Positions 2,945-16,028 of a DNA stretch of 24,644 nt are shown here, in pieces. Position 1 is the stretch's first letter, and each line of letters opens with the position of its first letter. Source of the DNA: a virus; IMG/VR virus record IMGVR_UViG_3300037537_000260, positions 1 through 24,644 of that record. One strand, 5' to 3'. The notes under the pieces were generated by a model. That model searched no databases. It worked only from the letters and a program-made list of their open reading frames with translations, and was not told the origin of the DNA. The translations under genes and the position numbers were made by a program.

Positions 2945-2963
2945 CACGCAATTTAATTGTGTG
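2945..2963. promoter_or_regulatory. 19-bp palindrome, copy 1
   Basis: CACGCAATT-T-AATTGTGTG has nine-base arms around one central base, with one G-T mismatch between arms. It lies 13 bases before the weak -35 at 2977. It is the exact reverse complement of copy 5 (15747-15765). Confidence 0.75.
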
Positions 2964-2976
2964 AAATAGCCCTGAC

Positions 2977-3004
2977 TTGCGTTATGTCCGGATGTATGCA
3001 TAAT
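2977..3004 (+). promoter_or_regulatory. Weak candidate sigma70 promoter for the first rightward gene
   Basis: TTGCGT (2977-2982) and CATAAT (2999-3004) are separated by 16 bases, the same spacing as the two stronger rightward promoters in this window. The palindrome copy 1 lies just upstream. The start would fall near 3011, giving a leader of about 115 bases before 3127. Confidence 0.4.
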
Positions 3005-3042
3005 AGAGTTATTCCAGTTATGGAATTGATACGAGTTGAACT

Positions 3043-3080
3043 GCATTAATACACTGTCATGGTGTTATTAATGCCAGTGT
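3043..3080 (+). promoter_or_regulatory. Mutually exclusive leader hairpins
   Basis: In a rightward transcript, GCATTAATA (3043-3051) plus CAC (3052-3054) can pair with GTG (3062-3064) plus TATTAATGC (3066-3074), with one bulged base. Alternatively ACACTG (3051-3056) pairs perfectly with CAGTGT (3075-3080). The two overlap and cannot form together. T-rich runs follow at 3089-3106. This could be an attenuator-like switch, or simply a stable leader. Confidence 0.4.
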
Positions 3081-3126
3081 TTAAAGTAGTTTTTCTCATT
3101 TTTTAATTATTAAAAGGTGGTGGAAA

Positions 3127-3816
3127 ATGAAAGACTTAAATACTATTAATGCAGAACAATTAGTTAAAACTGAAATTGAGAAAGCTTATAAATTAGATAA
3201 AAATGCAGTCTCAATTGGTACACAAGTTAAAGCTTATGATACTAAGCAGGGACAATTAAGAACCAAGGTAAGAAAGTCCCTTGCTAAATTATCCGAGGAT
3301 GGTAAATCTCAAGCTGATTTATATACTTTAGAGTTATTAATGAATTACTTTAAGGTTAATAAAAAAGATAAGCTTATGAAGACTTTAAAGTCTACAATTG
3401 AATGGGCTTACAGTGACTTGGTGAAAGATTCTACAGAGAAATTTTTTACTAAAGAAAACCGTAAAAGCATGAAAAATGTTACTTTAAATGATAATACGCC
3501 TTGCGTAATGTCTAAAGTGTTACCTGCTAAAGGTGGCAATTATTCGAAGGAAGGCGTGCTAAATACAGTGCTAGAATTAGTTAATAAAAATGACATTGTA
3601 TTAAACTTGAGTATTGCAGAAAGTGAGTTATTTATAACTAAAAATGTCTCACTATTTGAGCGGTTTTGTGAAATTGATAAAAAGAATGCACTTGTTATTA
3701 CTAAAAGTGAATTTGATTATTATTTTGACAATGTAATTACTGACTTTAGAAAAGAGCTTGAAAAAGCAAGGTTAGTGGCTACAATACCGGTTAAAAAGCA
3801 AGGTAATGCTGATTAG
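3127..3816 (+). CDS. Unknown 229-aa protein, first rightward gene, own transcription unit
   Basis: This is the first gene of the rightward arm. It starts at an ATG behind an AGGTGG ribosome site (3116-3121) and ends in a strong intrinsic terminator, so it forms a single-gene unit. The protein is lysine-rich and looks mostly helical (for example LYTLELLMNYFKV near residue 66). A less polar second half is centred on VLNTVLELVNKNDIVLNLS, and the C-terminus is basic. There is no signal peptide, membrane segment, Cys cluster or recognised enzyme motif. Base use is more AT-rich than in the replication genes. Position suggests an immediate-early product, perhaps a host-takeover or regulatory protein; it is a candidate ligand of the 19-bp palindrome, but no classic helix-turn-helix is evident. 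Function unknown. Confidence 0.85.
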   Translation: MKDLNTINAEQLVKTEIEKAYKLDKNAVSIGTQVKAYDTKQGQLRTKVRKSLAKLSEDGKSQADLYTLELLMNYFKVNKKDKLMKTLKSTIEWAYSDLVKDSTEKFFTKENRKSMKNVTLNDNTPCVMSKVLPAKGGNYSKEGVLNTVLELVNKNDIVLNLSIAESELFITKNVSLFERFCEIDKKNALVITKSEFDYYFDNVITDFRKELEKARLVATIPVKKQGNAD

Positions 3817-3826
3817 TTTTGCATTG

Positions 3827-3856
3827 AAGCCCTGATTAATTTCAGGGCTTTTTTTT
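3827..3856 (+). terminator. Strong intrinsic terminator
   Basis: AAGCCCTGA (3827-3835) pairs perfectly with TCAGGGCTT (3842-3850) across a six-base loop and runs into eight T (3849-3856). A second T-run follows at 3862-3870. It ends transcription of the 3127-3816 gene. Confidence 0.92.
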
Positions 3857-3913
3857 AACTTCTTTTTTTTAAATTTGAGAAAATTAATAACTGAAATGGG
3901 ATAAGAATTTCAT

Positions 3914-3941
3914 TTGACTTATTGATTTTCATAGGTATAAT
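3914..3941 (+). promoter_or_regulatory. Strong sigma70-type promoter for the small early genes
   Basis: TTGACT (3914-3919) and a perfect TATAAT (3936-3941) are separated by 16 bases. TGAAAT/ATTTCA arms (3892-3897, 3907-3912) sit just upstream. The -35 segment TTGACTT reappears inverted as AAGTCAA at 3952-3958, just after the expected start near 3948. Palindrome copy 2 lies at about +17 to +35. Confidence 0.85.
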
Positions 3942-3963
3942 TATGGATAAGAAGTCAATAAAC

Positions 3964-3982
3964 CACGCAATTAAAATGCGTG
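3964..3982. promoter_or_regulatory. 19-bp palindrome, copy 2
   Basis: CACGCAATT-A-AAATGCGTG. The outer seven bases with one flanking base (CCACGCA, TGCGTGG) pair perfectly, while the inner arm has one change from the other copies. ATATTTTTT follows, so in RNA this copy also resembles a weak terminator hairpin. It lies 34 bases before the start codon at 4017. Confidence 0.75.
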
Positions 3983-4016
3983 GATATTTTTTAACTATAA
4001 GAAGGAAGGTGCAAAA

Positions 4017-4226
4017 ATGATGATATTAAATTATCCGAGCAAGAAAGCTCTAAAGGAAAATGTTGGTAAGCCATTAAACTATACTGAAACCAGTTTTTTT
4101 GGGGATGAGTTTTTAAACAATGGCACATTTGTTGGTTGTAATAGGCCTACAATTACTAATAATAAAGGGCGTGAATTTTTTGCTCAAGTTACTATGCGTG
4201 AGGGATTGATTTTCTCAATCGCTTAG
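4017..4226 (+). CDS. Small conserved-type phage protein (69 aa)
   Basis: A 69-residue protein starts MMILNYPSKKALKENVGKPL and contains YTETSFFGDE, GTFVGCNRPTI and REFFAQVTM. The pattern of NYPSKKALK...GKPL, ETS.FG.E, NRP and REFFA.VTM is one I recognise from unnamed roughly 70-residue proteins found in many phages of Gram-negative bacteria; no function is established to my knowledge. Two ATGs (4017, 4020) follow the ribosome site GGAAGG, and either could be used. It is the first gene after the strong promoter at 3914-3941, so it is probably made early and in quantity. It has no membrane segment and one Cys. Likely a small globular beta-containing protein. Confidence 0.85.
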   Translation: MMILNYPSKKALKENVGKPLNYTETSFFGDEFLNNGTFVGCNRPTITNNKGREFFAQVTMREGLIFSIA

Positions 4227-4237
4227 TTGTAAAAAAT

Positions 4238-4276
4238 ATGGGATATTGCTATTAACACTAGTGGGCGGTATTCCAT
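4238..4276 (+). promoter_or_regulatory. Twelve-pair RNA hairpin between genes
   Basis: ATGGGATATTGC (4238-4249) can pair over all 12 positions with GCGGTATTCCAT (4265-4276) if three G-U pairs are allowed, leaving a 15-base loop. The G-U pairs exist only in the rightward transcript; the other strand would have A-C mismatches. There is no T-run after it, so mRNA processing or stability is more likely than termination. Confidence 0.55.
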
Positions 4277-4305
4277 ACTCTTTATAACTAGAAAAGTGAG
4301 GTGTT

Positions 4306-4434
4306 ATGTTAGAAAATGTGCTGTTAGACATATTTTTATTAATATGTGTGTTAATTGGCTTATCTTGTGCATTAATTCCTTTATATATAGGTATAAATGA
4401 CAGGATAAATGATAAATTTAAAGATAAGGAGTAA
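4306..4434 (+). CDS. Small single-span membrane protein (42 aa)
   Basis: An ATG at 4306 behind GTGAGG opens a 42-residue frame. Residues 5-30 are hydrophobic (VLLDIFLLICVLIGLSCALI, then PLYIGI), and a charged C-terminus ends DKFKDKE. This is a short inner-membrane protein with one span. The last codons AAG GAG TAA double as the ribosome site of the next gene at 4437, so the two are coupled. Small membrane proteins in early phage operons often modify the host envelope or block superinfection, but nothing here identifies this one. Confidence 0.7.
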   Translation: MLENVLLDIFLLICVLIGLSCALIPLYIGINDRINDKFKDKE

Positions 4435-4436
4435 AT

Positions 4437-4685
4437 ATGAGTCAATTTTATATTTGGTTGCTGTCTGTATGCTGCGATTCTAAAATTCATAATGGTCTAG
4501 CTGATGTAGATAGGCTTAATGAATGTAGTAGTTGTGGTAATAAGGTAGTAGATATGTGTAAAGGTTCTTATGACTCAAGGAAAAGAGCAGCAGAAAATTT
4601 CTTTGAAATGCATAAGGATGAATTGTATGGTGTTGAATTACAAGATGTAATAGACCACCACATGCGAGAAAATATTAACAGATAA
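4437..4685 (+). CDS. Small Cys-containing protein (82 aa)
   Basis: The ATG at 4437 lies just after AAGGAG, which is formed by the end of the previous gene. The 82-residue product has Cys at 12 and 13, a CSSC pair at 30-33 and Cys41, a pattern that could bind one zinc ion. The C-terminal half is hydrophilic and helical (RKRAAENFFEMHKDEL). No family is recognised. It lies in the 4017-4927 early unit, 11 bases before the next gene. Confidence 0.75.
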   Translation: MSQFYIWLLSVCCDSKIHNGLADVDRLNECSSCGNKVVDMCKGSYDSRKRAAENFFEMHKDELYGVELQDVIDHHMRENINR

Positions 4686-4696
4686 GGAGTAAGGAT

Positions 4697-4927
4697 ATGA
4701 ATGTATCTTGGAATAAAGAAAGGCTATTAACAGAGCCTTGCTGGTCGGCAACTGTCCGATTAACTTTTAGTCACCATAATGTTGGTGCTAAGGATAAGAA
4801 AGGTGTGCGAGAAAGTATAAAGCAAACTTTTTATGATGAATATAATTTAATTCTTGAGGATTATGAAATTACAGAAATCCGACAAGATGAAGAGCCTATT
4901 GTCAAAGAGATAATACCACGCAATTAA
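4697..4927 (+). CDS. Small hypothetical protein (76 aa) ending inside a palindrome
   Basis: A 76-residue protein starts MNVSWNKERLLTEPCWSATV and ends acidic (EIRQDEEPIVKEIIPRN). ATG at 4697 follows a TAAGGAGTAAGG ribosome site. The TRP-rich start followed by an alternating segment (WSATVRLTF) suggests a small alpha-beta fold. Its last codons and TAA stop (4916-4927) lie inside palindrome copy 3, so that regulatory element and the gene's end share bases. It is the last gene before the promoter at 4941. Function unknown. Confidence 0.75.
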   Translation: MNVSWNKERLLTEPCWSATVRLTFSHHNVGAKDKKGVRESIKQTFYDEYNLILEDYEITEIRQDEEPIVKEIIPRN

Positions 4928-4935
4928 ATTGTGTA
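4917..4935. promoter_or_regulatory. 19-bp palindrome, copy 3
   Basis: CACGCAATT-A-AATTGTGTA; the last base departs from the consensus. It includes the stop codon of the 4697 gene and ends five bases before the -35 box at 4941, an activator-like or upstream-operator position. Confidence 0.75.
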
Positions 4936-4940
4936 ACTGC

Positions 4941-4968
4941 TTGACTTATTTATTTTTTTATGGATAAT
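4941..4968 (+). promoter_or_regulatory. Sigma70-type promoter for the 4997-7455 gene block
   Basis: TTGACT (4941-4946) and GATAAT (4963-4968) are 16 bases apart. The first ten bases, TTGACTTATT, are identical to those of the promoter at 3914. Expected start is near 4975, about 20 bases before the ATG at 4997. The spacer is almost all A and T. Confidence 0.75.
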
Positions 4969-4996
4969 TGAGTATAACAAATCAAAAGGAGGATGT

Positions 4997-5692
4997 ATGG
5001 ATATACAAAATAATTTAGAGGCTGTCTTTTATAGTAAGGAATTCTTACATGAATTTGGTACTATAAGAACACTGAAGGATGCAATGGCATTAGTGGGTGG
5101 ATGTTCTAACCCAAAGAAAATGCCGGGATTGTCTTATGGATTGCCTACTGATATGTGCAATACAGGTATGAAGTTGAAAGTTATACCGGGTACTGTATGT
5201 TATGGGTGTTATGCTGATAAAGGACACTACAAACAGTATGAAGTTGCTATCAAGAAGGCTCAATACAGGCGATTAAAGAGCATTTCTAACCCTCGATGGA
5301 TAGAGGCTATGATTTATATATTAAATCACCAGAAATCGATTGTGGATACAGGTGTTTTTAGATGGCATGATAGTGGGGATATACAAAGTGTAGAGCATTT
5401 GGATAAGATAGTAAGGATTGCTGTCGCTACACCACATGTAAAGCACTGGCTACCTACTAAGGAAAGTAATTGGATACAGAAGTATGTAAATCCTATCCCG
5501 AAAAACTTGGTGATAAGGCTTAGTGGTACTTTTGTGGATGGTAAAGCACCAACAAGCTACCCCAACACAAGCACTGTCGTTACTAATGAGGATGATGCAA
5601 CTTGCAGAGCCTTTGAAAATGGTGGTGAATGTGGTGAGTGTAGACAATGTTGGGATGCTGGGATAAGAAATATAAGTTATGTAAACCATTAA
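4997..5692 (+). CDS. Cys-rich phage protein with HDSGD, PTKE and CRQCW motifs (GP88-like)
   Basis: This 231-residue protein is encoded behind a strong AAAGGAGG site. Visible motifs are Cys36 and Cys54, CYGC (68-71), RWHDSGDIQS (122-131), WLPTKE (151-156), IRLSG (173-177), Cys203 and CGECRQCW (212-219). The invariant-looking HDSGDI, PTKE, RLSG and clustered Cys match a family I know from many phages, including mycobacteriophage-type gp88 proteins; I am unsure of the exact family name and know no proven activity. The Cys spacing suggests a zinc or iron-sulfur site, and His-Asp-Ser-Gly plus Pro-Thr-Lys-Glu look like catalytic loops, so it may be an enzyme. It is the first gene after the promoter at 4941 and heads a run of small early-type genes. 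Confidence 0.8.
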   Translation: MDIQNNLEAVFYSKEFLHEFGTIRTLKDAMALVGGCSNPKKMPGLSYGLPTDMCNTGMKLKVIPGTVCYGCYADKGHYKQYEVAIKKAQYRRLKSISNPRWIEAMIYILNHQKSIVDTGVFRWHDSGDIQSVEHLDKIVRIAVATPHVKHWLPTKESNWIQKYVNPIPKNLVIRLSGTFVDGKAPTSYPNTSTVVTNEDDATCRAFENGGECGECRQCWDAGIRNISYVNH

Positions 5693-5701
5693 GGAGTGAG
5701 T

Positions 5702-5905
5702 ATGAGTATAGATTATAATGATGTATGGGAATTAGATGCAGTGAGTGACTGCTGTAATGCTGGTGTTTACTTGAATGGGATATGTGCAGAGTGCAAAGAC
5801 CATTGCACACCAGTGTATGAAGAAGAAGAAGTAAGTATAATGGATGTATACCGTGATGTTGGTATGAGTCCGGGTGATTTTATAGATAAGGAGTATACAA
5901 AATGA
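5702..5905 (+). CDS. Small zinc-ribbon-like protein (67 aa)
   Basis: AAGGAG at 5691-5696 points to the ATG at 5702; a GTG at 5696 overlaps that site and is unlikely to be used. The protein has SDCC (Cys17, Cys18), then GICAECKDHC (Cys28, Cys31, Cys35), a compact Cys arrangement common in small phage zinc-binding proteins. An acidic stretch (YEEEEVS) follows. It overlaps the next gene by four bases (ATGA). No specific function can be assigned; such proteins may bind host transcription or DNA-handling factors. Confidence 0.78.
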   Translation: MSIDYNDVWELDAVSDCCNAGVYLNGICAECKDHCTPVYEEEEVSIMDVYRDVGMSPGDFIDKEYTK

Positions 5906-6171
5906 AAGTACAAGATGCTATTGACCAGCTGAAAGAGATGTACGCCTTGGATGATGACATAATCATTGCTTGGTGGGATTATGAGTTTGTAAAGGAAACT
6001 AATCCTAAATTAACAGAGGATATTTGGGAAGATATTACTGGATTCAGTGAGTATAAGATGGACTGGTCCCAGATAAATGAGGATATAGACTGGTATATCT
6101 GGGATAAGATTGAAGATGCTAATATTGAAAGTGATAGAAATAGATTGAGAGCTAAATATAAGGAGAAGTAA
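5902..6171 (+). CDS. Acidic, Trp-rich small protein (89 aa)
   Basis: An 89-residue acidic protein with many Trp and Asp residues (IIIAWWDYEFV, DWSQINEDIDWYIWDKI). It starts at an ATG overlapping the previous stop (ATGA), with AAGGAG twelve bases upstream. The net charge is strongly negative until a basic C-terminus (NRLRAKYKEK). Its first 30 residues look like a small helix-strand domain often seen in unnamed phage proteins. A DNA-mimic or host-factor-binding role is possible but not shown. Confidence 0.75.
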   Translation: MKVQDAIDQLKEMYALDDDIIIAWWDYEFVKETNPKLTEDIWEDITGFSEYKMDWSQINEDIDWYIWDKIEDANIESDRNRLRAKYKEK

Positions 6172-6173
6172 GC

Positions 6174-6560
6174 ATGAGTGAGCAAATAAAATATACTCTC
6201 AGCGATGGTAGTATTACTACTGCTGTTGAGGTTATGAAACGCACAGGATTGTCTAGGATTGGAGCACACAGGCGATTGAAAAACCTGAATGATGTGGATA
6301 TGGTTTTCACAAGGGTTGGTGAGATACCTCGTGATAGTTATATTAAATGCACATGGATAAGCGAGCCTGTGAGAATTGCATGGGGTATACCTATCAACCC
6401 TGAATATTTAGATGGTATTACAGATGGAAATACTGTGTATAATAGGGATGGTAAGTTGATGACCTACGCAGAGAGAGTTGGATTAGCAGTCTACAGAACT
6501 AAGCTAAGACAGAAATGGCGTGATGGTTCAACTGATATTAAAAATAAGCAAAGGAGATAA
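6174..6560 (+). CDS. Possible helix-turn-helix protein (128 aa)
   Basis: Residues 14-38 (ITTAVEVMKRTGLSRIGAHR, then RLK) fit a helix-turn-helix: a helix, a turn around Gly25-Leu-Ser, and a recognition helix rich in Arg and His. A central domain with Trp and Pro (CTWISEPVRIAWGIPINP) follows, and the C-terminus is basic (KLRQKWRDGSTDIKNKQRR). ATG at 6174 follows AAGGAGAAG by a few bases and comes two bases after the previous stop. As one of very few likely DNA-binding regulators in the rightward arm, it is a candidate binder of the 19-bp palindrome; that link is inference only. It could also be a homing-type or adaptor domain. Confidence 0.7.
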   Translation: MSEQIKYTLSDGSITTAVEVMKRTGLSRIGAHRRLKNLNDVDMVFTRVGEIPRDSYIKCTWISEPVRIAWGIPINPEYLDGITDGNTVYNRDGKLMTYAERVGLAVYRTKLRQKWRDGSTDIKNKQRR

Positions 6561-6562
6561 TC

Positions 6563-6811
6563 ATGTTTAGAGAAATGTTTGATGATGATACGACACCTAG
6601 TGTTGAGGATATTCTTGCTGAAAATGCTGTCAATGAGTACATACTGTTCTTTAAGGAATGTAATAGACAACGTGAGCAGTTGGATAAGGAGCTGAAGAGG
6701 GTACTTAGTAAAGAGTCTTTGGATAAGTTTCTTGCTAAAGTAGATTCAATGAAGCCTATGTATGAGCAACTAAAAATCCTAGAGGATAGGATATACAATA
6801 AGGGAGAATAA
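6563..6811 (+). CDS. Small coiled-coil protein (82 aa)
   Basis: After an acidic N-terminus (MFDDDTTPSVEDILAEN), most of the 82 residues form a heptad-like helix (EQLDKELKRVLSKESLDKFL, then YEQLKILEDRIYN). ATG at 6563 follows AAAGGAGA. No enzyme motif, Cys or membrane segment is seen. The end runs straight into the TTG start of the next gene. Role unknown; a dimerising accessory protein would fit. Confidence 0.75.
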   Translation: MFREMFDDDTTPSVEDILAENAVNEYILFFKECNRQREQLDKELKRVLSKESLDKFLAKVDSMKPMYEQLKILEDRIYNKGE

Positions 6812-6812
6812 T

Positions 6813-7049
6813 TTGGAAACTTTTAATGTTAGAGTAAGACTTCTTCAGGAGTCTATATTTCATAAGGAAATAGAAGCTGAAAGCTGTGAAGATGCAGAGC
6901 TAATAGCTAGTACTGCTGTTTGGGAAGACGAATATACAGATGAGATAAGACAATCATTGGAAAGTCTAGATGAACAGTATGATGCTGAAGAAATCTGTCC
7001 TGAATGTAAGAGATGGATAGACAACTGTGAATGTAAGGAGGATGAATGA
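6813..7049 (+). CDS. Small acidic protein with a C-terminal CxxC-CxC knuckle, TTG start (78 aa)
   Basis: Translation appears to begin at TTG 6813, one base after the previous stop, with AGGGAG at 6801-6806; no ATG in this frame is suitably placed. The N-terminus (FNVRVRLLQESIFHKEIEAE, then SCEDAELIA) has the look of a strand-strand-helix domain common in small phage proteins. The C-terminus CPECKRWIDNCEC (Cys62, 65, 72, 74) is a probable zinc knuckle. It is acidic overall and overlaps the next gene by four bases. Function unknown. Confidence 0.75.
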   Translation: METFNVRVRLLQESIFHKEIEAESCEDAELIASTAVWEDEYTDEIRQSLESLDEQYDAEEICPECKRWIDNCECKEDE

Positions 7050-7276
7050 GTATAGAAATAACTGTATATGCAAGTGATGTCAAAGGTCTAGATGAACATA
7101 TTGAAAGGGCCTTAGATGTCAATGATTATTATGGAACTGCTCTGTTTGATAAGCATGCCAGACTGATAGACATAAATGACTATGAGTATTTCATTGAGCC
7201 GACCTGTTATTTAGGTATAATGATGGATATGCAACAGCAAATAAATGAACTTAAAAAGGAGGTAGAAAAGTTATGA
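7046..7276 (+). CDS. Small hypothetical protein (76 aa)
   Basis: ATG at 7046 lies in an ATGA overlap with the previous stop, behind TAAGGAGG. The 76-residue product begins with alternating hydrophobic residues (IEITVYASDV), has an acidic middle and ends in a short amphipathic helix (MQQQINELKKEVEKL). That helix also supplies AAAAAGGAGG, the ribosome site of the next gene. No known family is recognised. Confidence 0.75.
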   Translation: MSIEITVYASDVKGLDEHIERALDVNDYYGTALFDKHARLIDINDYEYFIEPTCYLGIMMDMQQQINELKKEVEKL

Positions 7277-7455
7277 GTAAAATAGGTGAGTACGTAATAT
7301 GGTGTCAAGAAGAGGGATACACCGATGATGCTGGTGATGTAGTCAGTATGGAATATGCTGAGTTATACATGAAGACTATGGAATATGAGCGAGAGCATAG
7401 AGACTACAGCAAACTACTACTTGATGATTATACAAACAATAAGATATACAAGTAA
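7273..7455 (+). CDS. Small acidic protein (60 aa), last of the early-type block
   Basis: ATG at 7273 overlaps the previous stop (ATGA). The 60-residue product is acidic and Tyr-rich (EYVIWCQEEGYTDDAGDVVS, later YMKTMEYEREHRDYSKL). It resembles short helical proteins common in phage early regions but has no assigned function. It ends just before a 246-base structured gap that separates this block from the replication genes. Confidence 0.72.
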   Translation: MSKIGEYVIWCQEEGYTDDAGDVVSMEYAELYMKTMEYEREHRDYSKLLLDDYTNNKIYK

Positions 7456-7469
7456 CAGTAGTGTTTATA

Positions 7470-7478
7470 TGATATAAT
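7470..7478 (+). promoter_or_regulatory. Extended -10 promoter ahead of the replication block
   Basis: TGATATAAT is a perfect TGn-TATAAT. No convincing -35 is present. The expected start near 7485 coincides with the first base of the perfect 8+8 palindrome at 7486-7502, so the element would be the very 5' end of the transcript or an operator at the start site. Confidence 0.55.
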
Positions 7479-7485
7479 CCTGCTG

Positions 7486-7643
7486 TCTTAGACAGTCTAA
7501 GAATACCTATGATGTACTAGTTGTTAGTAGAGAGTAGTAAATAACTAGGAATACTTAGATTGTCTAAGCCGGGATTAGTATTACTAAGATGTGCAACAGT
7601 TTTTTATGTTTCCTGTTGCACGCCTTAGTGGTATTAGCCACTA
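7486..7643 (+). promoter_or_regulatory. Cluster of inverted repeats in the gap before ssb
   Basis: The gap 7456-7701 has no credible gene. It contains TCTTAGAC-A-GTCTAAGA (7486-7502), CTTAGA-TTG-TCTAAG (7554-7568), which repeats the core of the first, GTGCAACAG/CTGTTGCAC with a 13-base loop (7591-7599, 7613-7621), and TAGTGG/CCACTA with a six-base loop (7626-7631, 7638-7643). CTAGTT/AACTAG arms also flank 7519-7548. Several stems in a row suggest a structured leader, processing sites or a small RNA. Confidence 0.6.
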
Positions 7644-7651
7644 GTGAGAGC

Positions 7652-7670
7652 TACGCAATTAAATTGTGTG
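7652..7670. promoter_or_regulatory. 19-bp palindrome, copy 4
   Basis: TACGCAATT-A-AATTGTGTG; the first base departs from the consensus. It lies 31 bases before the ssb start codon, after the hairpin cluster and before the AGGAGA ribosome site. Confidence 0.75.
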
Positions 7671-7701
7671 GTATTGATGATAACTACAATAGGAGATACA
7701 T

Positions 7702-8088
7702 ATGTCAGAAGCTATGACATTAACTGGTAAGGTGGTATTCAACCACGTTACTAAGCCTGATAACTTCAAAGGTACTGAGCGTTATGCACTTACCATTGCA
7801 TTGGATAAGGCTGGAAAGAAACTTGCTGAGAAAGCAGGTCTCAAAACTAGTGAGTATGAAGGTAACACACAGATAACTAGTAGACGCAAGGTGGAGTTTG
7901 AACTACCCAAGATTTACAATTCCGATAAGGAAGAAGTAGGTGTTGGACATCTATCTTTGTTTGGAGACCAAGTATCAATGAGAGTCAAGCAAGGAAAGGG
8001 AGACTACACTGGATATACTTATCTTGAGGCTATCCGTGTGGATGAGAAAGCAGATGGTGTGGAGGACTTTGACCCATCTGATTTTTAA
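7702..8088 (+). CDS. ssb: Single-stranded-DNA-binding protein (T7 gp2.5-like)
   Basis: A 128-residue protein starts behind a clear AGGAGA site. The body shows the strand-rich pattern of a gp2.5-type OB fold (MTLTGKVVFNHVTKPDNFKG, later RYALTIALDKAGKKLAEKAG, FELPKIYNS, VSMRVKQGKGDYTGYTYL). The C-terminus is an acidic tail ending EDFDPSDF. In T7 the acidic tail with a terminal Phe of gp2.5 contacts DNA polymerase and helicase, and the same feature here supports the call. It directly precedes the primase-helicase, as gp2.5 precedes the replication genes in T7. It is shorter than T7 gp2.5 (232 residues). Expected role: coat and protect single-stranded DNA at the fork and aid recombination. Confidence 0.85.
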   Translation: MSEAMTLTGKVVFNHVTKPDNFKGTERYALTIALDKAGKKLAEKAGLKTSEYEGNTQITSRRKVEFELPKIYNSDKEEVGVGHLSLFGDQVSMRVKQGKGDYTGYTYLEAIRVDEKADGVEDFDPSDF

Positions 8089-8115
8089 GGGTAACTGACA
8101 GGAGTTTAAGTTACA

Positions 8116-8135
8116 GGGGCATCTTCGGATGCCCT
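8116..8135 (+). promoter_or_regulatory. Very stable UUCG hairpin between ssb and primase-helicase
   Basis: GGGCATC (8117-8123) and GATGCCC (8128-8134) pair perfectly around a C(UUCG)G tetraloop, with an extra G-U pair outside. GTAACT/AGTTAC arms lie just upstream (8091-8096, 8109-8114). The following bases TACTTAATTT are not a strong T-run, so partial termination or protection of the ssb mRNA end fits better than full termination. Confidence 0.7.
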
Positions 8136-8160
8136 ACTTAATTTAAGCAAGGGAGAAAAT

Positions 8161-9813: not shown

Positions 9814-11524
9814 TTGTGACATAGAGACAGACGGACTCAACCCTAGTGTTGTATGGTGTATAGCTGTACAAGATATTCACTCAGGCCAAGTCATTACTTT
9901 TTCAGAGACTACCCTCGGTTTGTTTAAGCCTTGGTTAGCCTCTGAAGTTGACTGTCTTGTGTTCCACAATGGTATTGGATTTGATGTGCCTGTACTGGAG
10001 AAGTTATTAGGTATTGTCTTTGATTCTATAGAGATAGAGGATACACTGGTGCTTAGTCAATTAGATGAGCCAAGGAGAGATGGAGGACATTCACTAGCAT
10101 CATGGGGTGAGCGTCTTGGATTTAAAAAGGGAGACTATGATGACTGGTCAGCGTTTAGTAAAGAGATGCTAGACTATTGCATCATAGATGTGAAGATAAC
10201 AACTAAACTATACAGACACATGCTGCTGAAGGATTTGAGTCAAGATGCCAAGCAGTTGGAGTATGCTACAAAGAAACATTGCAGTGTACAAGAGAAGACT
10301 GGATGGTTGTTTGATTTACATGGTGCTATAGAATTACTTCAGGATATTAATGAGAACTTGAGAGAGACTGAGGAGCAGGTACATGGAACATTCATACCAC
10401 TTCCTTTATGGAAAAGTAAAAAACCTGTGGTTAACAGGTGGAAGAAGACTGGTGGTCGTACTGTGGCATACCAATCAGAGGTAGACCTTGAATGTCATAC
10501 CAATGATGATGGTGACTATGGATACTACACGTATCCTGAATTGAATTTGGGCAGTAGACAGCAGGTGGGTAGACACCTCATGCACTATGGCTGGAAACCA
10601 ACTGTATTTACAGAAACCGGTAAGCCTAAAGTGGATGAGAGTACACTCAAGGATGTTGACATACCTGAAGCTAAGATGATAGCACACTACCTCATGCTAC
10701 AAAAAAGACAGGGGCAAGTAAGCTCTTGGATTGATGAGTACAATTACAAAACTAAAAGGATACATTGCAGGGTGCACACTATAGGTACTGTCACTCACCG
10801 TATGTCTAGTAGTAACCCGAACTTACAGCAAGTTACTGCAAGTAATAAGGAATATGGTAGAGAGATGAGAGAATTATTCATTGTACCAAGCGACAAGGTA
10901 TTAGTAGGTGCAGACTTATCCGGATTAGAATTGAGATGTCTTGCTCACTACATGAAAGACCCTAATTATACAGAAGAAATATTGAGTGGTGATATACACA
11001 CAGCTAATCAAAAAGCTGCTGGTTTAAAGACAAGGGATGAAAGTAAGCGTTTCATTTATGCCTACCTTTATGGGTGTGGAGACCTGTTAATGGGTAAGAT
11101 ATGTGGTGGTGATAGAGAATTAGGTAAGAAAATAAAGGGTGATTTCTTATCCAACACACCTGCCCTTGCTACATTGAGGAAGAAGATAGAGCATGCATCA
11201 AAGCGTGGATGGATTAAAGCACTCGATGGTCGCAAGGTTTATGTTCGTAGCCCACACTCGGCACTCAACTTTCTACTTCAAAGTGCAGGTGCAATAATTG
11301 CTAAGAGAGCTTGGGAAATATTCCACATTCTTGCAGATGACTATGAGTACAAACAGCTTGGTGTTATACACGATGAGATACAGATAGAGTGTGACCCTAT
11401 GGACTCAGATACACTAGGTCAGTTGCTTGTTGATGCTATGGAATGTACAACAGAATATTATAAACTAAACTGTCCGATAACCGGGGAGTATAAAATAGGA
11501 AGGAGTTGGAATGACACACACTAA
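9791..11524 (+). CDS. Family A DNA polymerase with 3'-5' exonuclease (T7 gp5-like)
   Basis: The exonuclease domain shows CDIETDG (Asp10, Glu12), HNGIGFD (59-65) and YCIID (129-133). The polymerase domain shows motif A GADLSGLELR (373-382), motif B RDESKRFIYAYLYG (415-428) and motif C IHDEI (526-530). The O-helix residue matching T7 Tyr526 is Tyr423, which tends to mark virulent phages and permits dideoxynucleotide use in T7. At 577 residues it is about 127 shorter than T7 gp5, so the thioredoxin-binding insertion is probably absent and another processivity mechanism would be needed. Four ATGs in a row (9791-9802) overlap the helicase end; given the weak ribosome site AGG at 9786-9788, the third or fourth may be used. 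Replicates the phage genome with the upstream helicase and SSB. Confidence 0.95.
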   Translation: MMMMRTFSCDIETDGLNPSVVWCIAVQDIHSGQVITFSETTLGLFKPWLASEVDCLVFHNGIGFDVPVLEKLLGIVFDSIEIEDTLVLSQLDEPRRDGGHSLASWGERLGFKKGDYDDWSAFSKEMLDYCIIDVKITTKLYRHMLLKDLSQDAKQLEYATKKHCSVQEKTGWLFDLHGAIELLQDINENLRETEEQVHGTFIPLPLWKSKKPVVNRWKKTGGRTVAYQSEVDLECHTNDDGDYGYYTYPELNLGSRQQVGRHLMHYGWKPTVFTETGKPKVDESTLKDVDIPEAKMIAHYLMLQKRQGQVSSWIDEYNYKTKRIHCRVHTIGTVTHRMSSSNPNLQQVTASNKEYGREMRELFIVPSDKVLVGADLSGLELRCLAHYMKDPNYTEEILSGDIHTANQKAAGLKTRDESKRFIYAYLYGCGDLLMGKICGGDRELGKKIKGDFLSNTPALATLRKKIEHASKRGWIKALDGRKVYVRSPHSALNFLLQSAGAIIAKRAWEIFHILADDYEYKQLGVIHDEIQIECDPMDSDTLGQLLVDAMECTTEYYKLNCPITGEYKIGRSWNDTH

Positions 11525-11657
11525 GGAAAAGGAAATGAGAATAAAGTTAAATAATTTCTTAAAACATCAGAAAGAAATACTGATTCAGGCAGACAAAGAG
11601 ACTGAAAAAGAATTGGAAGAATTACTGAAAAAAGTTGGAGTGAAACACACTAATTAG
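11511..11657 (+). CDS. Small charged helical protein (48 aa)
   Basis: An ATG at 11511 behind AGGAAGGAG opens a 48-residue frame that overlaps the polymerase end by 14 bases. The product is lysine- and glutamate-rich and looks like one long helix (KEKEMRIKLNNFLKHQKEIL, later ETEKELEELLKKVG). The strong ribosome site lies within the polymerase gene, and the frame fills the gap before 11700, so it is probably real. With its position next to polymerase, a polymerase-associated factor is conceivable, but there is no evidence of function. Confidence 0.65.
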   Translation: MTHTKEKEMRIKLNNFLKHQKEILIQADKETEKELEELLKKVGVKHTN

Positions 11658-11699
11658 GGTAAAATACTACATACGAATTTTAATAAGAGAGGAGAGACT

Positions 11700-12509
11700 A
11701 TGAAGTCTATAAATACAGTAGTGCCTGACATCTATGATGTTATGGAGTCGAAGGATTATTCTGGAGACTTGAATGCAATAGCGATGCAGGCAGGTAGAGA
11801 GGTTGAAGATGCACTGAAGGATGCCTTCACGCCTAGAGAAGACAATCGTAATTTGAGAATGTCTGGTATAGGTAGGTGTGAGAGAGCACAATGGTACAAC
11901 TACAAAGGATACACCCCTGAATCAATCAAGGGTGAGGTGTACTTGACTTTCTTACAAGGCCATATACTGGAGGCTGTGCTTGTTGCTTTGATTAAACTAA
12001 GTGGACACAAGGTAGAGGACCAGCAAAAGAAACATACGATTGAAGGAATCAATGGCTCACAAGACTGCACCATAGATGGTGAGTTGGTGGACATTAAGAC
12101 AGCGAGTGCATGGTCTTGGGAAAATAAATTCAAAGAGAATGGTATTGATGGTGATGCCTTTGGCTACATCAAGCAGCTGTCTGCGTATGGCAAGTCAGAT
12201 GATAGAAAGAAAGGATACTTCCTTGCTTTCAATAAGAACAAATCAACACTTAAGTTATGTGAACAGGAACTAGAGCAAGACATAGATACTTTTATTGTTG
12301 ACTTGAAATCTAAGATGGAGTCAGACACACCGCCTATGAGACTAGCTAATAATACAACTTGGAACAAATCTAAGACAGAAGAGAAGCTATGTATGACGTG
12401 TGCATTCTGTGGATTCAAAGAAGATTGTTATGGTAAGGGAAACTTGAATGCCAGACCTATACCCTCTGGAAAAATAACTAACTACTATGTTACTGGAGCA
12501 AACTTTTGA
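11700..12509 (+). CDS. Cas4/RecB-like exonuclease with probable iron-sulfur site
   Basis: This 269-residue protein is of the PD-(D/E)XK nuclease superfamily. Visible elements are GRCERAQWY (Cys60), QGHILEA (His88, Glu91), TIDG (Asp126), the core VDIKTAS (Asp131, Lys133), KQLSAY (Gln159 and Tyr163, the RecB-type QxxxY), and a C-terminal cluster CMTCAFC..KEDC (Cys231, 234, 237, 243). One N-terminal Cys plus three near the C-terminus is the usual 4Fe-4S ligand set of Cas4 and AddB-type nucleases. It sits after the polymerase, where T7 has its gp6 5'-3' exonuclease, and may serve the same ends: degrading host DNA, removing primers, preparing ends for recombination. ATG 11700 follows GAGAGGAGAG. 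There is no CRISPR array or Cas1 here, so a CRISPR role is unlikely. Confidence 0.88.
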   Translation: MKSINTVVPDIYDVMESKDYSGDLNAIAMQAGREVEDALKDAFTPREDNRNLRMSGIGRCERAQWYNYKGYTPESIKGEVYLTFLQGHILEAVLVALIKLSGHKVEDQQKKHTIEGINGSQDCTIDGELVDIKTASAWSWENKFKENGIDGDAFGYIKQLSAYGKSDDRKKGYFLAFNKNKSTLKLCEQELEQDIDTFIVDLKSKMESDTPPMRLANNTTWNKSKTEEKLCMTCAFCGFKEDCYGKGNLNARPIPSGKITNYYVTGANF

Positions 12510-12667
12510 AACAACTACCTGAACTAAAGGCATACATCGCTGCGACATATGATGTGTGTCTTATCTGTGATGAACTAGAAATTGAACCTGAAGAATTACT
12601 CAATGCTTTTGAAAAGAAACTAATTGAAAAGAGGGATAGATTCTTAGAAGACTTTGAGGAGAGTTGA
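12506..12667 (+). CDS. Small acidic helical protein, TTG start (53 aa)
   Basis: A TTG at 12506 overlaps the stop of the nuclease gene, with GGAG at 12494-12497, and opens 53 residues beginning MKQLPELKAYIAATYDVCLI and ending EDFEES. It ends with TGA directly followed by the ATG of the next gene. The sequence ICDELEIEPEELLNAFEKKL looks like a small helix-turn-helix or four-helix fragment (a turn at EIEPEE). The tight packing on both sides supports coding. Function unknown. Confidence 0.65.
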   Translation: MKQLPELKAYIAATYDVCLICDELEIEPEELLNAFEKKLIEKRDRFLEDFEES

Positions 12668-12871
12668 ATGGATTATCTAAATATATTTGAATGGTGTTTT
12701 ATTTTACTGACAGGTGCTGGATTTGTTTGGTGGTCAAACAAGAGAGCATATGAGAAGGGCATAACAACTGCTGTTCTATTACACAGAGAGGGTAGATTAA
12801 AGTACAAGGACTATGACGATGAGGATGGTGTCGGTATGGTAGACATACAGATAGCACCTGATGAAGACTAA
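12668..12871 (+). CDS. Small N-terminally anchored membrane protein (67 aa)
   Basis: The 67-residue product begins with a hydrophobic span (residues 5-22, NIFEWCFILLTGAGFVWW) followed by a charged, acidic soluble tail (KYKDYDDEDGVGMVDIQIAP). It probably sits in the inner membrane with the tail in the cytoplasm. The start abuts the previous stop. It lies between the nuclease and the ribonucleotide reductase. No family is recognised; the aromatic-rich span followed by YEKGITTAVLLHREGRL is seen in short unnamed phage membrane proteins. Confidence 0.75.
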   Translation: MDYLNIFEWCFILLTGAGFVWWSNKRAYEKGITTAVLLHREGRLKYKDYDDEDGVGMVDIQIAPDED

Positions 12872-13001
12872 ACCACACCCTATAGTTAATAAACTTATGC
12901 ACTCTGTTAGAAATCACAGGATGTGGTCACCTAAAGTATTTTTAAACAAAAAGAAAGAACAAAAGAAGAGAGGAGAACATATTGAACAAACTACCGAATG
13001 A
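12861..13001 (+). CDS. Small basic protein overlapping the reductase start (46 aa)
   Basis: An ATG at 12861 overlaps the end of the 67-residue gene by 11 bases and opens 46 residues: MKTKPHPIVNKLMHSVRNHR, then MWSPKVFLNKKKEQKKRG and an acidic end. The frame runs 20 bases into the reductase gene, passing through its AGGAGA site. It is strongly basic, so nucleic-acid binding is possible. The ribosome site is weak. Coding is favoured by gap filling and tight overlap, but is not certain. Confidence 0.5.
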   Translation: MKTKPHPIVNKLMHSVRNHRMWSPKVFLNKKKEQKKRGEHIEQTTE

Positions 13002-14958
13002 TTATCAAAACTTCATTGCTCTGAGTAGGTATGCAAGATGGCTACCAGCTGAGAAGAGAAGAGAGAATTGGGAAGAAACTGTAGGTCGTTACTTTGATTT
13101 TATGGATGAACACCTACAAGATAACACTAGCTACACACTCACATCCAAAACCAGAAAAGAATTAGAGAAAGCAGTCATTAACTTAGAAGTAATGCCTAGT
13201 ATGAGGGCGTTAATGACAGCAGGCAAGGCATTAAAGGACAACAACATAGCAGGGTACAACTGTGCCTACCTTAGTGTTGACCATCCTAAAGCATTTGATG
13301 AGTGTCTGTATGTTCTAATGCACGGTACAGGTGTAGGCTTTAGTGTTGAGAGACAGCACGTTAACAAACTACCAGAAGTACCAGATGAATTTGAAGATGT
13401 ATCAGTAGCATTTACTATTACTGTAACTGATTCAAAAGAAGGCTGGCAGACAGCGTTCCGTAAATTAATAACTTACTTATATATAGGACAAATTCCAGAT
13501 TGGGATGTTTCTCATATAAGACCTAAAGGTTCTCGACTCAATACATTTGGTGGCAGAGCTAGTGGACCAGAGCCTTTAGTTGATTTGTTTATGTTTACAG
13601 TGCAGTTATTTAAAGAAGCAGCAGGTCGTAAACTTACAAGTTATGAATGTCATAGACTGATGTGTAAGATTGCAGAGATTGTAGTAGTTGGTGGAGTCAG
13701 GCGTAGTGCTTTGATTTCTCTAAGTAATTTGACAGATGAACGTATGCGTAATGCCAAGACCGGGCAGTGGTGGATAGACACACCTGAGATGGCACTAGCA
13801 AACAACAGCGTATGCTATACAGAGAAACCTGATATGGGTATCTTTATGAAAGAGTGGCTGTCACTGTATGAGTCCAAGTCTGGTGAGCGTGGTATATTCA
13901 ATAGAGAGGCAGCAATTAAACAGGTAGCCAAGTCGGGCAGACGTGATACAGACCATGAGTTTGGATGCAACCCTTGTTCAGAGATTATACTAAGAGACGG
14001 ACAGTTCTGTAATCTGACAGAGGTGGTGATTAGAGCAGAGGATACACACAAGGATATATTAAGAAAGGTAAGGTTGGCTACTATACTTGGTACATTCCAA
14101 GCATCGCTAACAAATCTCAGAAGACTTAGGAAGAAGTGGACAATCAATACAGAAGAGGAAGCACTGTTAGGTGTGAGCCTTACTGGTATTATGGACAACC
14201 ATTTTATGAATGGTAGTTCTAAGGAACGTGTGTCGGAGTGGCATGGTGGTATAAACCTTCCTGATTTCCTTTTGAAATTAAAGAATGAAGCAATCAAAGT
14301 TAATAAGGAATGGTCCTCACTATTAGGAATCAATCCATCTGCATCCATTACAGCTATCAAACCTAGTGGTACTGTTAGTCAGTTGGTGGACTCGGCATCT
14401 GGTATTCATCCGAGACACAACGACTACTACCTACGCAGGGTAAGAGCAGATGTTAAAGACCCAATCGCACAGCTTATGAAAGATGAGGGTGTGCCTTGTG
14501 AGCCTGATGTTATGAAGCCAGAGAGTGTTGAAGTATTCACATTCCCTATGAAAGCACCAGAGGATGCAGTGTTGAGAGATGATAGGACAGCAATAGAACA
14601 ACTAGAACTGTGGCTGATATACCAAAGGTATTACTGTGAGCACAAGCCGAGCATTACTGTAACTGTAAGAGAACACGAGTGGCTGGAAGTAGGTGCGTGG
14701 GTATACAAACATTTTGATGAGGTGAGTGGTGTTAGTTTCTTACCACACTCAGACCACAATTATCAGCAAGCACCCTATGAGGACTGTACAGAGGAAGTTT
14801 ATCTCGAAGCACTGGGGGGTATGCCTGAATCAGTAAACTGGTCTAGAATAGAAGAATACGAGCTTACAGACACTACTAAGGGTATGAAGACCCTAGCTTG
14901 TACTGGAAGTGTATGTGAAATGGTAGATTTAATTGATGAAGAGGAGGAGAGAGAATGA
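12982..14958 (+). CDS. nrdJ: Class II (B12-dependent) ribonucleotide reductase
   Basis: This enzyme converts ribonucleotides (probably triphosphates) to deoxynucleotides using adenosylcobalamin and needs no oxygen or small subunit. The residues known from the monomeric Lactobacillus leichmannii enzyme are all visible: GYNCAY (Cys94) and QFCNL (Cys343) as the active-site disulfide pair, CNPCSEI with Asn330, thiyl Cys332 and Glu334, GGVRRSAL (237-244), and a C-terminal shuttle pair CTGSVC (Cys640, Cys645). Cys332 and Cys343 are 11 apart, as in that enzyme. At 658 residues it is somewhat shorter than the 739 of L. leichmannii. The start is TTG 12982, set by AGGAGA at 12971-12976. It overlaps the next gene by four bases. 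It supplies nucleotides for phage replication and implies that the infected cell has cobalamin. Confidence 0.95.
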   Translation: MNKLPNDYQNFIALSRYARWLPAEKRRENWEETVGRYFDFMDEHLQDNTSYTLTSKTRKELEKAVINLEVMPSMRALMTAGKALKDNNIAGYNCAYLSVDHPKAFDECLYVLMHGTGVGFSVERQHVNKLPEVPDEFEDVSVAFTITVTDSKEGWQTAFRKLITYLYIGQIPDWDVSHIRPKGSRLNTFGGRASGPEPLVDLFMFTVQLFKEAAGRKLTSYECHRLMCKIAEIVVVGGVRRSALISLSNLTDERMRNAKTGQWWIDTPEMALANNSVCYTEKPDMGIFMKEWLSLYESKSGERGIFNREAAIKQVAKSGRRDTDHEFGCNPCSEIILRDGQFCNLTEVVIRAEDTHKDILRKVRLATILGTFQASLTNLRRLRKKWTINTEEEALLGVSLTGIMDNHFMNGSSKERVSEWHGGINLPDFLLKLKNEAIKVNKEWSSLLGINPSASITAIKPSGTVSQLVDSASGIHPRHNDYYLRRVRADVKDPIAQLMKDEGVPCEPDVMKPESVEVFTFPMKAPEDAVLRDDRTAIEQLELWLIYQRYYCEHKPSITVTVREHEWLEVGAWVYKHFDEVSGVSFLPHSDHNYQQAPYEDCTEEVYLEALGGMPESVNWSRIEEYELTDTTKGMKTLACTGSVCEMVDLIDEEEERE

Positions 14959-15140
14959 GCTTTATAAAACAGTATGTATTTATATTTGCAGTATGTATAT
15001 TATTGGTTATGTTATTAACAGGGTGTAGTGTTATGCAGGATAAGATGGATGCAATGAAGGCGGAGCAAGTGGATAATACACTATGTTGTGTTCCAGACCC
15101 AGACTTCCCACACTCTTGTGATGGATGGAACTTATGTTAG
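14955..15140 (+). CDS. Small Cys-rich lipoprotein (61 aa)
   Basis: A 61-residue protein has a textbook lipoprotein signal: a basic start (MSFIKQ), a hydrophobic stretch (YVFIFAVCILLVMLL) and the lipobox LTGC with Cys24 as the lipidated residue. The mature part is only about 38 residues and holds four more Cys (TLCCVPDPDFPHSCDGWNLC, 42-61), which may form disulfides in the periplasm. It overlaps the reductase stop by ATGA. An outer-membrane spanin subunit (Rz1 type) is one possibility because it is small and lipidated, but it lacks the proline-rich body of Rz1. A superinfection-exclusion lipoprotein is another possibility. Confidence 0.8.
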   Translation: MSFIKQYVFIFAVCILLVMLLTGCSVMQDKMDAMKAEQVDNTLCCVPDPDFPHSCDGWNLC

Positions 15141-15247
15141 AAAGAATTTTAAATTTCATAATCTACAGTGCTGTAATAGTTACTGCGGGTTGTATGGTTT
15201 ATGTTGTTATGTGGCTTGAGGCTTTAAGAAAAGGATGGTTAGTATGA
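15134..15247 (+). CDS. Small single-span membrane protein (37 aa)
   Basis: An ATG at 15134 overlaps the lipoprotein end and opens 37 residues: MLERILNFIIYSAVIVTAGC, then MVYVVMWLEALRKGWLV. Nearly the whole protein is hydrophobic, with a short basic tail, so it would span the inner membrane once. The ribosome site is weak (GATGGA), and translation may depend on coupling to the lipoprotein gene. It belongs to a run of tiny membrane genes that may form a lysis or envelope-control cassette. Confidence 0.5.
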   Translation: MLERILNFIIYSAVIVTAGCMVYVVMWLEALRKGWLV

Positions 15248-15327
15248 TAGACTTTACAAAGGACTCGGAGTACATAAGGATGTATGGTAAGAAGGGAGGG
15301 GAGATGTTTAACTTTAAAGGAGTAAAA

Positions 15328-15570
15328 ATGTTAGATAAAATAATGAGCATCGCTGATGCCAGTATAAATGTAGGTATTAAACTGATTAGTTTGGCAATTG
15401 TTTTACAGATTGTCTTTGGTCACAGCGTACCATTCCTAGGTGGCAATGTCATCGGTACAATCATAGGAATAATCAATGAGTTAGGTGCTGCTGGTTTAGT
15501 GGGTCTACTTGCAGCAGTAGTTATCTACCGCTTGTTGGATGATGACATCCGCAAGGAGTTGTCTGAATGA
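15328..15570 (+). CDS. Holin-like small membrane protein (80 aa from internal start)
   Basis: AAGGAG at 15318-15323 sits five bases before the ATG at 15328 and defines an 80-residue protein with two clear hydrophobic spans (INVGIKLISLAIVLQIVFG and AAGLVGLLAAVVIYRLL), a glycine-rich middle (FLGGNVIGTIIGII) and a charged tail (DDDIRKELSE). The same frame is open further upstream to ATG 15244 or 15235, preceded by AAGGAT, adding 28-31 hydrophilic residues. Two alternative starts would resemble the lambda holin arrangement. Size, spans and charged tail fit a holin, but no endolysin is visible nearby, so the function is inferred. It overlaps the next gene by four bases. Confidence 0.7.
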   Translation: MLDKIMSIADASINVGIKLISLAIVLQIVFGHSVPFLGGNVIGTIIGIINELGAAGLVGLLAAVVIYRLLDDDIRKELSE

Positions 15571-15665
15571 AAGACACACTAAACAAACTACTGGAAAATA
15601 AATCATTAACCGTCTTCTTGGGCATTGTCGTATTGGCATTGTTATTTGGATGGCTAGGTGGTTAA
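15567..15665 (+). CDS. Tiny single-span membrane protein (32 aa)
   Basis: The ATG at 15567 lies in an ATGA overlap and is preceded by AAGGAG at 15553-15558. The 32-residue product has a charged N-terminus (MKDTLNKLLENK) and a hydrophobic C-terminal span (LTVFLGIVVLALLFGWLGG). The good ribosome site and overlap make it credible despite its size. It would insert in the inner membrane together with the 80-residue protein; a holin partner or antiholin is conceivable. Confidence 0.65.
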   Translation: MKDTLNKLLENKSLTVFLGIVVLALLFGWLGG

Positions 15666-15804
15666 AAAGAAAGTAGACAAAAACACTTGGGGTCTTGTCC
15701 GCATGGATAGGACTTCCAAGTTACAATGGGAATTAAAAACAAATCTCACACAATTAAATTGCGTGGATAATCCTAGACTTTGGAGGAGGGACTGGAACAA
15801 ATGA
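15658..15804 (+). CDS. Possible small protein spanning a palindrome, GTG start (48 aa)
   Basis: From GTG 15658 the frame is open for 48 residues (MVKKKVDKNTWGLVRMDRTS, then KLQWELKTNLTQLNCVDNP and RLWRRDWNK) and ends with a TGA that overlaps the DUF3310 ATG (ATGA), the usual coupling in this genome. It starts inside the preceding membrane gene. The product is basic and Trp-rich. Palindrome copy 5 lies inside the frame, where it would encode Thr-Gln-Leu-Asn-Cys-Val. The ribosome site (GGATGG) is modest. An alternative is that the region is a non-coding leader. Confidence 0.45.
   Translation: MVKKKVDKNTWGLVRMDRTSKLQWELKTNLTQLNCVDNPRLWRRDWNK
15747..15765. promoter_or_regulatory. 19-bp palindrome, copy 5 (inverted orientation)
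   Basis: CACACAATT-A-AATTGCGTG is the exact reverse complement of copy 1. It lies 35 bases before the DUF3310 start codon, the same distance class as copies 2 and 4. A weak imperfect hairpin, ACTTGG/CCAAGT with inner GTCC/GGAC, lies just upstream (15685-15721). Confidence 0.75.
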
Positions 15805-16028
15805 ATATAGATAGCATTAACCCACAACATTATAAACAAGGCAACATAGAAGTAATAGATTTTATACTGGACCAGAAGATGAGTTACCTTATCGCCAGTG
15901 CTTGCAAGTACCTCTGCAGATTTCCGCATAAGCACGTAGGTGAGGGTGGACTAGATGACTTAAGGAAGGCACGATGGTTCATTGAAAAACAAATAGAAGA
16001 AATACTTAAGGAAGAGGACATCAAATGA
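15801..16028 (+). CDS. DUF3310 family protein (75 aa)
   Basis: The ATG at 15801 gives MNIDSINPQHYKQGNIEVID, followed by ACKYLCRF and DDLRKARWFIEKQI. This is the DUF3310 signature: a His-Tyr motif near the start, an I-E-V-I-D segment, then KYL.R and a D-L-x-K-A helix. A TTG at 15780 in the same frame overlaps the GGAGGAGGG ribosome site and is not the likely start. DUF3310 proteins are widespread in phages and resemble nucleotide-kinase or MazG-like helical proteins in general shape, but their activity is not established. It overlaps the resolvase gene by four bases. Confidence 0.85.
   Translation: MNIDSINPQHYKQGNIEVIDFILDQKMSYLIASACKYLCRFPHKHVGEGGLDDLRKARWFIEKQIEEILKEEDIK

Follow-up and report, generated by a model that had tools for sequence, protein, structure and literature searches.

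The operators of the lambda repressors CI and Cro are dyads of 17–19 bp, and their specificity differs between related phages (immunity groups). In lambda antitermination a very divergent first early gene (N) is paired with repeated dyads (nut/boxB) that differ between phages, and N15-like phages carry a few inverted-repeat partition sites scattered in their genomes. In the Cluster A mycobacteriophages, including L5 and Bxb1, the Rep immunity repressor binds to stoperators, and the bound repressor blocks RNA polymerase (PMC6550527). The sites of this kind differ in motif between related phages together with the repressor, and several of them per genome are located between genes and outside promoters, acting in the control of the early arm. 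Stoperators are oriented with transcription, and the phages that carry them are temperate, with integrase or partition genes.

We analysed a 24.6-kb viral contig (24,644 bases, hereafter the window) from a phage described as marine, which encodes a family A DNA polymerase, a primase-helicase, a B12-type ribonucleotide reductase and a terminase. The closest isolates are 42% identical in polA (Pelagibacter phage HTVC103P), and a scan of bacterial genomes revealed no close relative. The relatives are throughout metagenome contigs, none of them grown; one of these, L065, shows many frameshifts in the polA and primase ORFs, suggesting a low-quality assembly. No phage RNA polymerase (PF00940) was detected in 7 related records, the window itself being a partial genome, while the positive control HTVC019P was found with E=4e-106. 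Likewise, no tyrosine integrase (PF00589) or serine recombinase (PF00239) was found in contigs of up to 47 kb. Since a T7-type polymerase and both types of recombinase were not found in these contigs, which may be incomplete, a lysogeny switch is not indicated.

Like the Cluster A stoperators, the sites described here are mostly not at promoters (in the window this applies to copies 4 and 5), and their motif covaries with a candidate repressor gene (3127–3816). Unlike in Cluster A, where 20–30 asymmetric sites of 13–14 bp occur, each genome has 3–6 palindromic sites of 14–22 bp, no recognised repressor family and no integrase were found, and late copies are often flipped. With the CI/Cro operators they share the dyads and a specificity that differs between related phages, but they are dispersed through operons instead of being clustered at one divergent promoter. 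A CI/Cro-like helix-turn-helix (HTH) gene was not found in 12 records, as HTH_3 gave only one sub-threshold match per record, in ORFs of 196–210 aa that fit the small terminase by size and place. The combination of a divergent first early gene and phage-specific repeated dyads recalls lambda N/nut; in contrast to nut/boxB the dyads are loopless, uncompensated, flipped in late positions and placed right before start codons. They are as few and scattered as the partition sites of N15-like phages, but are tied to early-gene start codons. We found no description of such a palindrome/regulator system in the open-access literature.

An earlier note on this DNA had described five copies of a 19-bp dyad ahead of rightward genes. 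All five were confirmed, with 0 expected from 100 dinucleotide shuffles, and the distances it gave to start codons and −35 boxes are correct (Table 1). Its claim that the dyads are confined to the rightward arm, which is the early and replication arm, also holds, as no further site is present in the 24,644 bases at ≤3 mismatches. Copy 2 follows the −10 box of the top promoter match in the scanned region (3914–3941, 11/12) by 22 nt, copy 3 overlaps the final 11 bases of ORF 4697–4927, and a 48-aa ORF (15658–15804) that may not be real encloses copy 5. No sigma70-like promoter was found within 150 nt upstream of copies 4 and 5. Copies 1 and 2 recur unchanged in another contig, which shows 99.86% identity along 4.33 kb.

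Table 1 Positions and sequences of palindromes and neighbouring features in the window and in related contigs
Feature	Genome	Position	Strand	Sequence	Remark
Palindrome copy 1	window	2945–2963	+	CACGCAATTTAATTGTGTG	163 nt before gene 3127–3816; 13 bases ahead of TTGCGT, a weak −35
Palindrome copy 2	window	3964–3982	+	CACGCAATTAAAATGCGTG	ends 34 nt before ATG 4017
Palindrome copy 3	window	4917–4935	+	CACGCAATTAAATTGTGTA	5 bp upstream of −35 (TTGACT) at 4941
Palindrome copy 4	window	7652–7670	+	TACGCAATTAAATTGTGTG	ends 31 nt before SSB-like gene (ATG 7702)
Palindrome copy 5	window	15747–15765	−	CACACAATTAAATTGCGTG (on +)	flipped; ends 35 nt before DUF3310-type gene (ATG 15801)
Proposed regulator gene	window	3127–3816	+		229 aa, pI 9.2; first rightward gene
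Intrinsic terminator-like hairpin	window	3826–3851	+		after proposed regulator gene
Sigma70-type promoter	window	3914–3941	+	TTGACT-16-TATAAT	ahead of copy 2
Sigma70-type promoter	window	4941–4968	+	TTGACT-16-GATAAT	adjoins copy 3
SSB-like gene	window	7702–8088	+		downstream of copy 4; named from position and synteny; no PHROG match
DUF3310/nucleotide-kinase-like gene	window	15801–16028	+		downstream of copy 5
Duplicated promoter module	window	3914–3958, 4941–4985			45 nt, 78% identical
AT-rich, repeat-rich region	window	7460–7650			~190 nt, ahead of SSB-like gene
Second leader element	window	4224–4290	+		structured RNA
Second leader element	L006	4738–4804
Second leader element	L108	4942–5008
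Second leader element	L013	3596–3662, 4208–4259
Second leader element	L055	5023–5078
Palindrome-capped methylase-leader hairpin	L007	4739–4799
Palindrome-capped methylase-leader hairpin	L008	4320–4381
Palindrome-capped methylase-leader hairpin	L011	5257–5318
Palindrome-capped methylase-leader hairpin	L013	5420–5482
Palindrome-capped methylase-leader hairpin	L065	4464–4524
Five clustered 7-1-7 dyads	L055	3395–3515		TGMGAATNATTCTCA	before likely early promoter
Five clustered 7-1-7 dyads	L034	1283–1403		TGMGAATNATTCTCA	before likely early promoter
Five clustered 7-1-7 dyads	L029	4268–4388		TGMGAATNATTCTCA	before likely early promoter
Palindrome	L108			ACGCATTTAAATGCGT	de novo dyad search
Palindrome	L112			CCAAGCATTTAATTGCTTGG	de novo dyad search
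Palindrome	L118			CACGCAATTAAATGCGTG	de novo dyad search
Palindrome	L107			CACACTTCTTGAAGTGTA	de novo dyad search
Palindrome	L007			CTCGGAATTATTCCGAG	de novo dyad search
Palindrome	L008, L013			TCGGAACACGTTCCGA	de novo dyad search
Palindrome	L012			CGTAACGCGTTACG	de novo dyad search
Palindrome	L011			TGTAACGCGTTACA	de novo dyad search
Palindrome	L009, L010, L119			ATTGGCGCGCGCTAAT	de novo dyad search
Palindrome	L006			ATTAACCCGGTTAAT	de novo dyad search
Palindrome	L065			CTCCGAAGTCCTCGGAG	de novo dyad search

Two further features of the window are listed in Table 1. The duplicated promoter module has the palindrome downstream in one copy and upstream in the other. The AT-rich region ahead of the SSB-like gene contains a large hairpin, is partly conserved in relatives and is a possible replication origin.

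The closeness of the copies to start codons of replication genes would also suit a phage-specific promoter, an alternative already named in the earlier note, or an activator element. The distance to the ATG is, however, too short for a downstream −10 box plus the conserved Shine-Dalgarno sequence, some copies are flipped, and copy 3 is followed by a normal −35 box. In addition, the single-subunit RNA polymerase that belongs to a T7-type promoter set was not detected by PF00940 in the 7 related records. We consider such an element very unlikely.

The exact motif of the window is absent from 63 related IMG/VR loci (polA relatives), and a scan of IMG/VR with a 17-base pattern returned the window phage only, plus matches at about the estimated chance number. 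Given these outcomes, the test by position weight matrix proposed in the earlier note would have resembled a refutation. This was resolved by searching for repeated dyads de novo, genome by genome, with a scored version. About 15 near relatives each carry a repeated palindrome of their own, with 3–6 copies of 14–22 bp (Table 1). Relatives further away, among them L174 and L117 (72% in polA), yielded no comparable set. Conservation at equivalent places, on which the earlier note had based its refutation test, holds for the position of the sites and does not extend to their sequence.

One or two copies precede the first rightward gene, with equivalents of copy 1 in 16/16 compared genomes, in most relatives upstream of the proposed promoter of this gene. 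One copy follows the first gene a short way ahead of the next start codon, usually 14–47 nt past the −10 box of a good sigma70 promoter; a promoter precedes this equivalent of copy 2 in most relatives. The remaining copies precede SSB, exonuclease, methylase, F18 or DUF3310 genes by 14–35 nt (~49 in L009 and L119), and none of these sites has a sigma70-like promoter in the preceding 150 nt. The position of copy 4 is conserved in L108, L112, L118, L107, L009, L010 and L119. Long contigs have 4–5 sites each, with no copies in the structural arm (L107, L108, L112, L011). A degenerate copy within the primase gene of L006 is probably due to chance.

L108 and L112 share 95.7% identity in the 17.3 kb that follow the first gene on its right and nevertheless differ in all 5 palindromes. 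The two distal sites show the same symmetrical changes, with 9/40 bases changed inside the palindromes vs 7/415 in the flanks (p=9e-7). The first gene is only 47% identical between the two phages, and two small early ORFs are likewise below 75%, whereas the large conserved proteins are 97–100% identical (SSB, primase and polA 99–100%). L007 and L011 present a similar picture: all four sites differ, and the first gene is 27% and polA 94% identical. Over 16 genomes the similarity of the palindromes correlated with that of the first gene (3127–3816 in the window; Mantel rho 0.63, p=0.0002, on data that are not fully independent). The correlation was retained when controlling for each of 14 other shared families (0.48–0.65), and none of these families was significant after control for the first gene.

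The placement of the copies, which is mostly intergenic, would agree with host-factor sites or repetitive extragenic palindromes lacking regulatory specificity. This explanation is very unlikely, since phages about 96% identical use different palindromes, and the small number of copies per genome and the empty structural arm also argue against it. Alternatively, the sites could be operators of another regulator, and the first gene might simply hitch-hike by recombining with the sites flanking it. The earlier note had proposed the product of 6174–6560 next to that of 3127–3816, and 6174–6560 does have an HTH-like match, below cut-off. Its similarity showed no residual correlation once 3127–3816 was accounted for, L108 and L112 share 96% identity in its counterpart, yet their distal sites differ, and the changes extend to sites at distances of ~4 and ~11 kb from the first gene. 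A regulator other than the first-gene product is thus quite unlikely, and of the two candidates covariation strongly favours 3127–3816.

In two genomes a mismatched copy was observed. L109 has a first gene and early sites of the L107 type and an SSB site of the L108 type, and in L012 one methylase-leader site is of the L007 type. These genomes may be recent recombinants with lagging distal sites, or chimeric assemblies.

The 3127–3816 product gave no Pfam match over cut-off and no PHROG or PDB match, and belongs to no recognised family or DNA-binding fold. Its family is also present in L107, L108, L109, L112 and L118, and a second first-gene family in L007, L008, L011, L012, L013 and others, with a weak match for the first gene of L065. 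Profile comparison of the first-gene families F35 and F24 gave a weak hit (E 0.0017, probability 15%), and the first gene of the L009 group showed no significant similarity to either. The AlphaFold models of both families, of modest quality (pLDDT 59 and 69), have the order helix, beta-hairpin, helix, helix, and Foldseek returned no significant match for them. Profile comparison and predicted fold order together hint at a distant link between the two families. In L006 and in the L009/L010/L119 group, position alone ties the first gene to the others.

Most copies precede a start codon by 14–35 nt and probably form part of transcripts, and the first gene is, like N genes, early and very divergent. 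The palindromes could therefore also be 5′-leader hairpins bound by the first-gene product as translational repressor, RNA-processing factor or N-like antiterminator. Against such RNA-level control, the dyad symmetry reaches the centre (e.g. TTTAAA, CGCG), whose bases would have to stay unpaired in the loop of a hairpin. Of 21 dyad positions that vary within genomes, 0/21 have two Watson-Crick pair types, in contrast to the many compensated pairs of a neighbouring true RNA element and to the compensated stem-loop of lambda nut. Although the genes concerned all run rightward, reverse-complement copies make up 12/18 of the late and 0/48 of the early sites; related genomes do not contribute independently to these counts. 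Moreover, copy 1 precedes the promoter proposed for the first gene in most relatives. Central symmetry, uncompensated pairs and flipped later copies speak for binding of a dimer to duplex DNA, and we regard control at the RNA level as unlikely. The main counter-sign to the DNA reading is the methylase leader of F24-type relatives, where the palindrome sits at the apex of a conserved hairpin in the RNA.

On the sense strand, G-U outnumbers A-C by 40 to 14. This wobble bias was weighed as a sign of an RNA site and set aside as uninformative, since it reduces to ~6 vs 2 palindrome classes.

The neighbouring RNA element is a second leader element of ~50–67 nt (TAGTTGTAAA...TTTATAACTA), located just before the Shine-Dalgarno sequence of early genes. 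In this element 99.2% of pair cells are paired, with double changes in 12/19 pairs. It has no Rfam match and occurs in one to several copies per genome in the wider family. In the methylase leader of several relatives, the phage-specific palindrome replaces the apex of this element within conserved flanks (AAGGGATA...TATCC). A separate observation concerns the clustered 7-1-7 dyads of L055, L034 and L029, one of which matches the textbook Fur box in 14/15 positions.

Taken together, we estimate a probability of about 0.57 that the palindromes are operators of one dimeric phage regulator, most likely the 3127–3816 product, which blocks or tunes transcription. The small regulon of dimer-type sites suggested by the earlier note is retained in this reading. 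Binding of the palindromes by this protein is suggested by the covariation, and repression by the position of the sites. The protein would be made early and bind next to the promoter of its own gene, a short distance past the early promoter that follows, and at internal points ahead of promoterless replication and nucleotide genes. Since it would be bound just after or beside a promoter, or within an operon right before a gene, acting as a roadblock would be the simplest mode of action, in a sparse, stoperator-like operator network. Related phages would keep the same network and alter regulator and palindromes jointly. The regulator of one phage would thereby be blind to the sites of another, as in superinfection immunity groups.

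Such a regulator could switch off early genes on time in a phage that appears to be lytic and, as a side effect, could silence a later-arriving kin phage. New passwords of regulator and site would then be favoured, and the joint change may be driven by selection for immunity or exclusion. More tentatively, and with the balance rather against it, a new family of DNA-binding regulators of unrecognised fold might run immunity-type passwords in apparently strictly lytic phages, with the regulator and all its sites switching as a set between phages that are otherwise nearly identical. An infecting phage might then be able to silence only those kin that share its password.

Temperate phages, under immunity selection, are known to diversify a regulator jointly with all its sites. 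Its occurrence in marine phages in which no integrase was detected would point to competition via repressor specificity among lytic phages as well, e.g. during co-infection or superinfection. The related palindromes and alignable regulators represent natural specificity variants for studying how a regulator and its multiple sites change jointly, and the two genomes with mismatched copies may have been caught part-way through such a change.
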